Of a stretch of 64,000 nucleotides of DNA, positions 37,981 through 40,662 are shown one piece after another (positions within the stretch are counted from its first letter, which is position 1; the number at the start of each line of letters is the position of its first letter). This DNA comes from Microbacterium oxydans. Lineage in GTDB: Bacteria > Actinomycetota > Actinomycetes > Actinomycetales > Microbacteriaceae. The DNA lies in NCBI RefSeq assembly GCF_006540085.1, contig NZ_BJOG01000005.1, positions 248,001 through 312,000 on the forward strand. The letters are read 5' to 3'. The translations under genes and the position numbers were made by a program. The notes under the pieces were generated by a model that ran no database searches, was not told where the DNA came from, and worked only from the letters and a program-made list of their open reading frames with translations.

Positions 37981-38607
37981 ATGGCAGTCATCCTCCTCAC
38001 CGGCTTCGAACCGTTCGACGGCGCAGAGCGCAATCCGTCGGCGGATGCGGTGAACGCGGTGGCGGTCGACTACGAGGGACCGCACGAGCTCGTCATCGCG
38101 ACTCTTCCTGTCGCATTCGAGTCATCCGCCCAGCGGCTTCGCGCCCTCATCGCCCGACACGCACCGGACGTCGTCATCTGCACCGGGCTCGCCGGCGGAA
38201 GCGCCCACGTCGCGGTGGAGCGCATCGGCGTGAATCTGATGGACGCGCGCATCCCCGACAACGACGGCGCCCAGCCGATCGACGTTCCCAGCGAGGCGGG
38301 CGGTCCCGAAGCGCGGTTCTCGACACTTCCCGTCAAGCATCTGGTGCAGGTCATCGACGCGGCGGGCATCCCTGCCCGGTCCTCGCTGTCCGCCGGCAGC
38401 TACGTCTGCAATCACGTGTTGTACACCGTGCTGGGGGCGGTGCGCCCCGACGCCGTCGCCGGGTTCGTGCATCTTCCCTGGTCGACGGCGACCGCGCCGT
38501 CCGTCTCTCCTCATCTGAGCGAGGAGCAGCTGGCTCGCGCCGTGCGCCTGGTCGTCGATCACGCCCTCGATGCCGAGACGAAGGAGCCGGGCGGCAGCAT
38601 CTGGTGA
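37981..38607 (+). CDS. pcp: Pyroglutamyl-peptidase I
   Basis: A 208-residue cytosolic cysteine peptidase (family C15) that removes N-terminal pyroglutamate. LLTGFEPFDGAERNPS opens the protein; the catalytic triad is in ERIGVNLMDARIPDNDG (Glu about 81), SLSAGSYVCNHVLY (Cys about 143) and GFVHLPWS (His about 166). Length is standard. It lies just ahead of the trp leader region; the 47-bp gap contains the trp promoter, so the two are likely separate transcripts. Confidence 0.94.
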   Translation: MAVILLTGFEPFDGAERNPSADAVNAVAVDYEGPHELVIATLPVAFESSAQRLRALIARHAPDVVICTGLAGGSAHVAVERIGVNLMDARIPDNDGAQPIDVPSEAGGPEARFSTLPVKHLVQVIDAAGIPARSSLSAGSYVCNHVLYTVLGAVRPDAVAGFVHLPWSTATAPSVSPHLSEEQLARAVRLVVDHALDAETKEPGGSIW

Positions 38608-38641: not shown

Positions 38642-38654
38642 TAGTTTCGGCCCC
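38642..38654 (+). promoter_or_regulatory. Leaderless promoter -10 for the trp leader peptide
   Basis: TAGTTT (38642-38647, preceded by TGTGG, an extended -10 look), seven nt, then the leader ATG at 38655. No ribosome site precedes the leader, consistent with leaderless translation. Confidence 0.5.
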
Positions 38655-38690
38655 ATGCTCGCGAACTTCACCTGGTGGCCCGCCTTCTAG
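38655..38690 (+). CDS. trp leader peptide
   Basis: An 11-residue reading frame, MLANFTWWPAF then TAG, with two adjacent Trp codons (38673-38678). The frame ends where segment 2 of the attenuator begins. Ribosome stalling on the Trp codons would mask segment 1 (CCGCC just after them) and free segment 2. It serves only as a tryptophan sensor for the following anthranilate synthase gene. Similar leaders are known for fused trpE(G) in Streptomyces venezuelae. Confidence 0.85.
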   Translation: MLANFTWWPAF

Positions 38691-38741
38691 GCGGTGTGTT
38701 CGCGTTCCCACGAATTCAGACCGCCCCCGGGGCGGTCTTTT
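38680..38741 (+). promoter_or_regulatory. trp attenuator
   Basis: Four segments can be drawn: 1, CCGCC (38680-38684); 2, GGCGGT (38690-38695); 3, ACCGCC (38720-38725); 4, GGCGGT (38731-38736). Pairs 1:2 and 3:4 form when Trp is ample; 2:3 is the antiterminator. The 3:4 stem extends to 9 bp (38718-38726 with 38730-38738) with a 3-nt loop and runs into TTTT, a classic intrinsic terminator 40 bp before the structural gene. Confidence 0.85.
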
Positions 38742-38778
38742 CGTTGCGCCGAGCCGGAGCACAGCACAGGAGATACTC

Positions 38779-40662
38779 ATGACCCTCTCGCGACTCGCCG
38801 AGCTCCGCGCCGATCCGACCGCGTCCTTCGTCCTCATCGCCCGCGATGGAGCCGACACCGTCGAGCTGCTCAGCGGCGACGTGCGGGATGTCGACCTGCT
38901 CGCCGATATCCCCCTCGCCGTCGACGGCACGCCTCGTGAGGTGTTCGCGATGGTCCCCTACCGCCAGGTTCGCGAGCGCGGCTTCGTCGCCCAGGACGAC
39001 GCCGCACCGCTGCGGTGCGTGGTCGTCGACGAGCACCTGCACCTTCCGACCGCCGAGCTCCTCTCCGCGCTGCCGAGTGAGCCGGTCGCCTTGCACGACG
39101 AGGGCTTCGACATCGCCGACGCAGAGTATGCGGCGATCGTCGAGAACGTCATCGCGGACGAGATCGGCCGCGGAGAGGGCGCGAACTTCGTCATCCGCAG
39201 GGACTTCACCGCGAATGTCGACGTCGATGACCGGACGGCGGCCCTGACCTGGTTCCGTGCGCTGCTCACACACGAGCGCGGTGCGTACTGGACCTTCGCG
39301 GTCTTCACCCCCGGTCACATCGCCGTCGGCGCCAGTCCCGAAGCGCATGTGGTCGCCCAGGGCGGCATCGTCACCATGAACCCGATCTCCGGAACCTTCC
39401 GTCACCCGGCGGGTGGGGCGACGAAGGAGACGCTGGTCGACTTCCTCGCCTCCACGAAGGAGACCGAGGAGCTGTTCATGGTCGTGGACGAGGAGCTCAA
39501 GATGATGAGCGCCGTCTGCTCCGACGGAGGACGGATCACCGGTCCGCACCTCAAGGAGATGTCGCGGCTCACGCACACGGAGTACATGCTCCGCGGACGC
39601 AGCACGCTCGACCCCCGCGACATCCTGCGCGAGACCATGTTCGCTCCCACGGTCACCGGCTCGCCCATGCAGAACGCCTGCGCTGTGATCCGTCGTCACG
39701 AGCAGAAGCCGCGAGGCTACTACTCGGGTGTCGCGGCGCTGTTCTCCCCGAACGCGGACGGCGGCCATGACCTGGACGCCCCCATCCTCATCCGCACCGT
39801 GTATCTCCAGGACGGCGCGCTCAGCGTGCCTGTCGGAGCCACGCTGGTCCGACACTCGGACCCCATGGGCGAGGTGTCCGAGACGCACGGTAAGGCCGCG
39901 GGTGTGCTCGGTGCCATCGGGGCGATCGACCGCGATCATGTGGCCGAGGCTCGCAGCGATGCGGACGCTCCCGGTGACGCGCACGCCCTCGCCGACGACC
40001 CGACCGTTGCCGAGCTGTTGGAATCACGAAACGCGCGCCTGGCCGAGTTCTGGCTCAACCCGCAGGGCGAGGAATTCACCGGTCCGTTCGCCGGACGCTC
40101 CGCCGTCGTCGTCGACGCGGAGGACCGCTTCACCACCATGCTCGCGCACCAGCTCCGTCATCTCGGACTCGCCGTGAAGATCGTGCCCTGGAATGACGCA
40201 CAGGATGCCGACCTGGATGCCGCCGACCTGGTCGTCGCGGGCCCCGGCCCCGGTGACCCGCGGGATGCGCAGAGCGCCCGCATCGCCAGGATGCGCGACG
40301 TCGTCACCCGTCGCCTCGACTCCGGCATGCCGCTGCTCGCCGTGTGCTTGAGCCACCAGATCCTCGCCGACCGCCTCGGCATCGCCCTGACTCCTCTCGA
40401 CGCACCGCACCAGGGGCTGCAGAAGTCGGTCCCGGTGTTCGGCGAAGACGCATCGATCGGCTTCTACAACACCTTCACCGCGCGTGTCGCCCCGGGCACG
40501 AGCGCGGTCGGCGACGCCGAAGTGTCCGCAGACGCGGATTCGGGCGATGTCTACGCGCTCCGAGGAGACCGTTTCGCCTCCGTGCAGGGGCATCTCGAGT
40601 CGATCCTCTCGCGAGACGGCATCCGGACGCTCGAACGCCTCGTGACCCACGCCCTCGCCTGA
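38779..40662 (+). CDS. Fused anthranilate synthase (TrpE-TrpG type)
   Basis: A 627-residue fusion: residues 1 to about 420 are a chorismate-binding synthase domain (GATKETLVDFLASTKETEELFMVVDEE, then GSPMQNACAVIRRHEQKPRGYYSG), and residues about 440-627 a class I glutamine amidotransferase with the nucleophile Cys523 in LLAVCLSHQILA and H605/E607 in VQGHLES. It would make anthranilate from chorismate and glutamine, the first step to tryptophan. The family also includes PhzE, which makes ADIC for phenazines, but the tandem-Trp attenuator ahead of it and the lack of phz genes favour tryptophan synthesis. AGGAGA lies 6 nt before the ATG. Confidence 0.88.
   Translation: MTLSRLAELRADPTASFVLIARDGADTVELLSGDVRDVDLLADIPLAVDGTPREVFAMVPYRQVRERGFVAQDDAAPLRCVVVDEHLHLPTAELLSALPSEPVALHDEGFDIADAEYAAIVENVIADEIGRGEGANFVIRRDFTANVDVDDRTAALTWFRALLTHERGAYWTFAVFTPGHIAVGASPEAHVVAQGGIVTMNPISGTFRHPAGGATKETLVDFLASTKETEELFMVVDEELKMMSAVCSDGGRITGPHLKEMSRLTHTEYMLRGRSTLDPRDILRETMFAPTVTGSPMQNACAVIRRHEQKPRGYYSGVAALFSPNADGGHDLDAPILIRTVYLQDGALSVPVGATLVRHSDPMGEVSETHGKAAGVLGAIGAIDRDHVAEARSDADAPGDAHALADDPTVAELLESRNARLAEFWLNPQGEEFTGPFAGRSAVVVDAEDRFTTMLAHQLRHLGLAVKIVPWNDAQDADLDAADLVVAGPGPGDPRDAQSARIARMRDVVTRRLDSGMPLLAVCLSHQILADRLGIALTPLDAPHQGLQKSVPVFGEDASIGFYNTFTARVAPGTSAVGDAEVSADADSGDVYALRGDRFASVQGHLESILSRDGIRTLERLVTHALA

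Follow-up and report, generated by a model that had tools for sequence, protein, structure and literature searches.

The stretch of Microbacterium oxydans DNA analysed here (64,000 nt, contig NZ_BJOG01000005.1, positions 248,001 to 312,000 of the forward strand; hereafter the window) carries a gene for a fused enzyme, preceded by a short open reading frame (ORF) with two adjacent tryptophan (Trp) codons and by overlapping complementary segments that end in an intrinsic terminator. This arrangement is very probably a ribosome-mediated attenuator that responds to the charging of tRNA-Trp and governs a fused, PhzE-like enzyme, likely to be the only anthranilate synthase of the cell. The features of the locus, in window coordinates, are listed below.

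38642–38647, + strand: TAGTTT, a TANNNT motif and putative -10 element of a leaderless promoter; TGTGG stands before it, as in an extended -10 element
38655–38690, + strand: leader ORF of 11 codons plus TAG, encoding MLANFTWWPAF; the A of the ATG is the presumed transcript +1
38660–38666, + strand: outer arm of segment 1, CGCGAAC, within leader codons 2–4, pairing with 38698–38704
38673–38678, + strand: tandem Trp codons, the putative sensor (WW in 59/59 loci of the genus)
38680–38684, + strand: inner arm of segment 1, CCGCC, as read from the sequence
38690–38704, + strand: segment 2, consisting of GGCGGT (38690–38695) and the outer arm GTTCGCG (38698–38704); GGCGG is invariant in 59/59
38718–38726, + strand: segment 3, the 5′ arm of the terminator, AGACCGCCC, pairing with segment 4; ACCGCC lies at 38720–38725
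38730–38738, + strand: segment 4, the 3′ arm of the terminator, GGGCGGTCT; 8 bp were counted in the alignment
38738–38741, + strand: U tract of the terminator, TTTT, as read from the sequence
38768–38772, + strand: AGGAG, Shine-Dalgarno site of the structural gene, with a best duplex to the anti-Shine-Dalgarno (anti-SD) sequence of -7.4 kcal/mol
38779–40662, + strand: PhzE-like fused chorismate-binding/glutamine amidotransferase enzyme of 627 residues (Pfam PF00425 and PF00117), a probable anthranilate synthase

Conservation and pairing of the leader region

The initial annotation had described an 11-codon leader with tandem Trp codons, overlapping 1:2, 2:3 and 3:4 pairings and a 9-bp terminator with a U tail, and had segment 2 begin on the leader stop codon. 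Direct reading of the sequence and conservation in 59/59 genomes confirmed this anatomy. The leader starts with the ATG at 38655–38657 and ends with the TAG at 38688–38690, the last base of which is the first G of segment 2. Genomes of the genus (Microbacterium, judged by the nearest named relatives), the family and the class were sampled evenly, and all 59 genus genomes carried the fused gene together with a leader containing the Trp pair. The leader was 11 codons long in 57 of the 59, with one leader of 12 codons and one of 9. The first Trp codon was located five codons upstream of the stop in 58/59 of these leaders and in 13/16 leaders from other genera of the family, where total length ranged from 11 to 14 codons. 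A fixed distance between the Trp codons and the stop is what attenuation requires.

The terminator of the window has a 9-bp stem (AGACCGCCC/GGGCGGTCT) with the loop CCG and a predicted energy of -16.5 kcal/mol, and is followed by TTTT. In the alignment of the 59 leaders, 98.7% of its cells were paired, both sides were changed at three of the eight pairs, and none of 500 shuffles reached as high a value on four of five measures. Counted locus by locus, the terminator kept seven of eight pairs in six loci; when the leaders were folded one by one, it was not recovered under the rule used in 3/75 (L072, L074, and L080), and these were excluded from the medians. The 2:3 helix was paired in 91.2% of cells of the same alignment, and its core (GGCGG/CCGCC) was kept in 59/59, two of its pairs each including a single G-U cell. 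The inner 1:2 helix can form in two registers, CCGCC/GGCGG or CACCG/CGGTG, and held at least four of five pairs in 57/59 loci, with L035 and L039 having three.

Absent from the initial description was an outer 1:2 helix (CGCGAAC/GTTCGCG), which was seen in the minimum-energy fold. At least five outer pairs were present in the predicted fold of 75/75 leaders (59 from the genus and 16 from other genera), as compared with average fractions, under shuffling of the region after the stop, of 0.52 for the genus and 0.51 for the other genera. The sequence of this helix varies freely among leaders, and the helix touches the start codon in 49/75 (40/59 in the genus, 9/16 in other genera). It was scored by per-sequence folds and shuffles, because MAFFT does not keep the helix in register.

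Several results weigh against this interpretation of the segments. Single-sequence folding of the whole region was modestly unusual (z of -1.9), and a search with Rfam at gathering thresholds gave no match in the window, which leaves conservation as the basis of the case. As many pair types as in the terminator were reached by 36/500 shuffles; sliding the terminator by +3 columns gave a covariation score of 0.074, against 0.078 in the true register, but with only 70.8% of cells paired; and the outermost pair counted was broken in 6/59 leaders. For the 2:3 helix, the sixth pair was kept in 53/59 and broken in 6/59, the count of doubly changed pairs was matched by 174/500 shuffles, and the registers slid by +2 and +3 columns had higher covariation scores than the true one. 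The core of segments 2 to 4 is nearly invariant, which confines covariation to the ends of the terminator, and a weak signal is expected for 2:3 because the same bases also serve 1:2 and 3:4. The covariation among related genomes to which the initial annotation had looked was found in the terminator (doubly changed pairs at 3/8), and is weak in the 2:3 helix as independent support.

The invariant GC-rich core, by limiting covariation tests, gives some room to a different account, namely a constitutive terminator next to a fortuitous ORF that has two Trp codons. Such a coincidence is hardly credible, as the WW leader and the spacing to the -10 element are conserved jointly in 59/59 genomes and in many genera, and the terminator stays paired; a chance terminator was rejected on the conservation of both the leader and the stem pairing. 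The data support a classical four-segment trp attenuator, with a WW leader, a 3:4 terminator, a mutually exclusive 2:3 helix and a 1:2 helix that overlaps the leader.

In the proposed mechanism, transcription would begin at the A of the leader ATG, and a ribosome would load on the 5′-terminal AUG and translate MLANFTWWPAF behind RNA polymerase. With Trp-tRNA plentiful, the ribosome would arrive at the stop codon and cover segment 2, the 3:4 terminator would form, and transcription would end before the gene. A ribosome at a stop codon covers up to 12 nt downstream (PMC4833913). With Trp-tRNA in short supply, the ribosome would stall at codons 7–8; with a Trp codon in its A site, its leading edge would reach about as far as the stop codon, just short of segment 2, which would be left free to pair with segment 3, and the gene would be transcribed. 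If no ribosome were loaded, 1:2 and then 3:4 would form, and transcription would again end.

Translation start of the leader peptide

The initial annotation placed TAGTTT 7 nt upstream of the leader ATG and suggested that the sensing peptide is translated from a leaderless transcript. The spacing was confirmed, with 7 nt separating the last T of TAGTTT from the ATG, and TANNNT was found 6 or 7 nt upstream of the leader start in 59/59 genus loci and in 16/16 leaders from other genera of the family. The leader-search scripts required TANNNT near the start, a rule by which no genus locus was lost; as background, TANNNT stands at a spacing of 6–7 nt before 21 of the 3829 ATG/GTG triplets in the window. 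Among the genus loci, the leader start codon was ATG in 56 and GTG in 3, and the base at -1 was C in 56 and T in 3. No conserved -35 element was present in the alignment of the leader upstream regions, as conservation fades beyond about position -18, and inspection by eye revealed no Shine-Dalgarno motif upstream of the leader starts.

The best anti-SD duplex in the window was -3.5 kcal/mol at the leader versus -7.4 at the structural gene, and the medians were -3.6 kcal/mol for the 59 leaders and -7.4 for the gene starts of 30 loci, these starts having been chosen for the best duplex. The contrast is soft, because of that selection (in spite of which 8/30 of them fell short of -5 kcal/mol) and because the duplex reaches -5 kcal/mol at 28/59 leaders, which tells against a leaderless start. 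The constant spacing between TANNNT and the start, the use of ATG and GTG only, the pyrimidine at -1 and the lack of a visible Shine-Dalgarno motif strongly indicate that the leader peptide is translated leaderless. This part of the initial annotation thus gained evidence from the sequences; its suggestion of novelty did not hold, given that trpL1 of Streptomyces lividans has already been reported as leaderless (PMC8079986).

Immediately upstream of the leader is a co-directional gene for a pyroglutamyl-peptidase I-like protein (pcp, 37981–38607, same strand), which ends 47 nt before it. This neighbour, and the fact that in 9/44 genus loci, the window included, the leader frame runs on upstream to another start codon, would fit a real attenuator whose leader lies on a longer, leadered transcript, initiated upstream or read through from pcp, and is translated there without a Shine-Dalgarno site. 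In 35/44 loci the leader frame has no such extension, and a longer leader peptide from an upstream start codon was rejected as unlikely on that count. The TANNNT at a constant 6–7 nt and the pyrimidine at -1 in 59/59, with no conservation beyond about -18, and the leaderless report for the S. lividans orthologue (PMC8079986) speak for a leaderless start, and we consider the leadered transcript improbable. Readthrough from pcp would meet the attenuator without a 5′-terminal AUG.

Leaderless initiation had been expected, in the initial annotation, to remove the usual 5′ structures that pace the first ribosome. The sequences do not support this expectation, as segment 1 lies on or next to the start codon and the outer 1:2 helix was predicted in every leader folded. 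A further proposal, offered tentatively, is that ribosomes initiate on the very 5′ arm of the 1:2 hairpin, in a leaderless attenuator found across much of the class, which would leave each transcript one chance of loading a ribosome and would make the switch respond to the rate of 70S loading as well as to the charging of tRNA-Trp. After about 50 nt had been made, the 1:2 helix would close over or beside the 5′-terminal start codon, and transcripts read through from upstream would be shut off because they carry this AUG internally, away from the 5′ terminus. If this were true, the only entry of Microbacterium into tryptophan synthesis would be gated by a single switch.

Enzyme type and chorismate-binding enzymes of the genome

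The protein of the structural gene contains a chorismate-binding domain (PF00425) and a class-I glutamine amidotransferase domain (PF00117), and its nearest named relatives, which belong to Microbacterium, are up to 90% identical to it. Over residues 27–626, covering both domains in the same order, it matched PDB entry 3r74 at 529 bits. That entry is listed as anthranilate/para-aminobenzoate synthase component I, and we take it to be PhzE of Burkholderia. Two other assignments were rejected, canonical actinobacterial TrpE (NF010086; 98.9 bits against a cut-off of 693) and the fused TrpE(G) type (TIGR01815; 158.9 bits against a cut-off of 739), and all NCBIfam TrpE models among the 25 families shown were far below their cut-offs. 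Of the label "fused anthranilate synthase" given in the initial annotation, the function is probably right, whereas the sequence is PhzE-like and not of the TIGR01815 type.

The same similarity to 3r74, taken as PhzE, and the same low scores against the TrpE models would also be expected if the enzyme made 2-amino-2-deoxyisochorismate (ADIC) for a secondary pathway, as PhzE does, with the Trp switch balancing the use of chorismate rather than the supply of tryptophan. That PhzE relatives can stop at ADIC weighs against an anthranilate product; the product of Lim6 is mainly ADIC, and sequences do not reveal why anthranilate synthase proceeds to anthranilate while PhzE does not (PMC5958127). On the other side, the leader senses Trp codons, the cut-off for canonical TrpE was exceeded in 0/59 genus genomes, and trpDCBA remain in the window genome. 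In addition, the enzyme of Streptomyces venezuelae, to go by the title of a paper, is said to be a fused anthranilate synthase. An ADIC synthase is thus an unlikely identity for the window enzyme, which shares its two-domain order with PhzE and is instead probably an anthranilate synthase.

The window genome encodes two further chorismate-binding enzymes, one PabB-like and one isochorismate synthase-like, as well as a PabA/TrpG-type subunit. A general TrpE model detected nothing above its cut-off in this genome, a cut-off that was reached in 5/14 control genomes. With NF010086, 0/59 genus genomes scored above 693 bits, the best matches having 222–269 bits. This cut-off was reached by 0/14 named control genomes, so the family is the fair comparison set, and there 110/149 genomes exceeded it, 133/149 matched at E ≤ 1e-100, and canonical genes scored 532–789 bits. 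Three genus genomes (G007, G010, and G054) gave four, five and four matches instead of three, all below the TrpE cut-off, indicating that they hold further chorismate-binding enzymes. The fused gene was present in 19/149 family genomes at E ≤ 1e-60, eight of them without canonical TrpE and 11 with both; among the other 130, canonical TrpE was found in 122 and neither enzyme in eight.

All of trpD, trpC, trpB and trpA are present in the window genome. Its his-trp cluster (C4, L128:1894-3136) comprises hisG, hisF, trpC, trpB, trpA and lgt, and lacks trpE. Canonical trpE sits between hisF and trpC in both relatives checked (L209 and L210); the corresponding interval of the window genome holds short ORFs, one of 126 residues (taken by eye as hisI). 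With trpE missing from the cluster while trpDCBA remain, the attenuated gene is probably the only anthranilate synthase gene of the genome, and the most economical account is a loss of trpE, with its role passing to the attenuated fused enzyme. A point against according the fused enzyme such a role comes from Streptomyces coelicolor, where, among several trpE genes, TrpE3 and not TrpE1 was called the central enzyme (PMC5036795).

Distribution of the leader and comparison with known systems

Outside the genus, a leader was located upstream of 16/17 family orthologues. The exception (L076, from G082, a 1.4-Mb genome) has no Trp leader and has TAGCAT 7 nt before the presumed ATG of the gene, an arrangement suggestive of a lost attenuator and of a gene that has become leaderless in its own right. 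In the class, the fused gene was found in 117/296 genomes, and the leader at 24/25 newly fetched loci and in 10/20 further upstream stretches; these 20 stretches came from 18 genomes, G326 and G452 giving two copies each, and two loci of the class set (L083 and L085) repeat genomes already counted. The fused gene without a leader, in 10/20 stretches and at 1/25 loci, counts against a constant association of the two. In both G326 and G452, one copy of the fused gene has a leader and the other does not; these second copies (L109 in G326, L113 in G452) encode the fused enzyme without a Trp leader and are possibly enzymes of secondary pathways. In the leaders of L100 and L103 the gap to the -10 element is 8 rather than 6–7.

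A leader was also present in 77 of the best 80 named loci, which partly overlap the genus genomes, so that the two leader counts are not independent. The three named loci without one were L160 and L171 (where the sequence ends near the gene) and L205 (Streptomyces sp. ISL-100). Leader-bearing loci belonged to Microbacterium, Agromyces, Plantibacter, Jiangella, Blastococcus, Kutzneria and other genera.

For genome searches, an RNA model of the attenuator (R1) was built. It matched at least 92/149 family genomes at E ≤ 0.1, mostly weakly. In the window genome it revealed no second attenuator, giving only weak matches beside the window site, among them one at E 0.006 on C1. A match at E 0.001 (G000:C9, L223) was rejected for its position within a long ORF, and another, at E 0.05, proved to be the window terminator read on the opposite strand. 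Of the matches away from a fused gene, eight were inspected (L221–L228), and six of these are without a short Trp-codon ORF and look like chance. The remaining two come from Microbacteriaceae genomes that lack the fused gene, and both of their Trp leaders look leaderless. In G201 (L222:237-368, + strand), a Trp leader (MHTANQWWTA) with TANNNT 6 nt upstream and a terminator precedes trpB (TIGR00263, 573.6 bits). In G140 (L221, - strand), a Trp leader (MHMTTAWWPTFSVG) with TANNNT 7 nt upstream and a terminator precedes a gene for a 234-residue Methyltransf_11 protein with no NCBIfam match, possibly a Trp-controlled methyltransferase.

Among known systems, trpL of Escherichia coli likewise has tandem Trp codons, four segments and a terminator; unlike the window, it has a 5′ untranslated region with a ribosome site, and its start codon lies outside segment 1. 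Leaderless polycysteine short ORFs of mycobacteria, reportedly the subject of a 2020 paper by Canestrari, resemble the window leader as leaderless sensor ORFs that control amino-acid genes in an actinobacterium. The polycysteine regulation is a translation attenuation (PMC13236596), whereas the window has a strong intrinsic terminator. Attenuation is well described for the trp genes of Corynebacterium and Streptomyces, whose classical attenuators share with the window a double or triple UGG, a GC-rich terminator with a U tract and complementary triple segments (PMC1262725); in a word search of the main text of that paper, neither "leaderless" nor "Microbacter" occurred. A Microbacterium trp attenuator was not reported among the literature matches listed, most subscription papers being outside their scope, and priority is not claimed. 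Trp attenuation in S. venezuelae was reportedly treated by Lin et al. in 1998, as the title has it.

In S. lividans, trpL1 (MFAHSTRNWWWTAHPAAH) precedes a monocistronic trpE; it was reported as leaderless from RNA-seq with 5′-end libraries, and its termination is seemingly Rho-independent (PMC8079986). The Streptomyces trpE(G)/trpL1 system has, like the window, an orthologous fused gene and a leaderless-type Trp leader (with WWW there), and differs in leader length, which is 18 codons as against 11 in the window with three after WW. Four leaders of the class set (L106, L107, L110, and L112) agree with S. lividans trpL1 at 14–17 of 18 residues and have a -10 gap of 7, and their fused proteins have 52–53% identity to the window protein. 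A difference in gene content is that Microbacterium had no canonical TrpE above the cut-off, in contrast to the several trpE genes of S. coelicolor (PMC5036795).

The remaining interest seems to lie in the near-invariant geometry of the leader, in the 1:2 helix that lies on or next to the start codon, and in a genus seemingly reliant on one attenuated enzyme, in which a PhzE-like protein under a Trp switch appears to have replaced TrpE. The nearly fixed 11-codon leader makes ribosome geometry easy to test, and the locus, if these proposals are true, would be a clean system for the coupling of leaderless initiation to transcription and for the choice between anthranilate and ADIC among PhzE relatives. 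Because the orthologous Streptomyces leader has the same anatomy and was reported as leaderless in S. lividans, the novelty of the window attenuator is weakened; the Microbacterium switch is a well-preserved relative of the known Streptomyces leaderless trp attenuator, a type that is now extended to Microbacterium and further genera.

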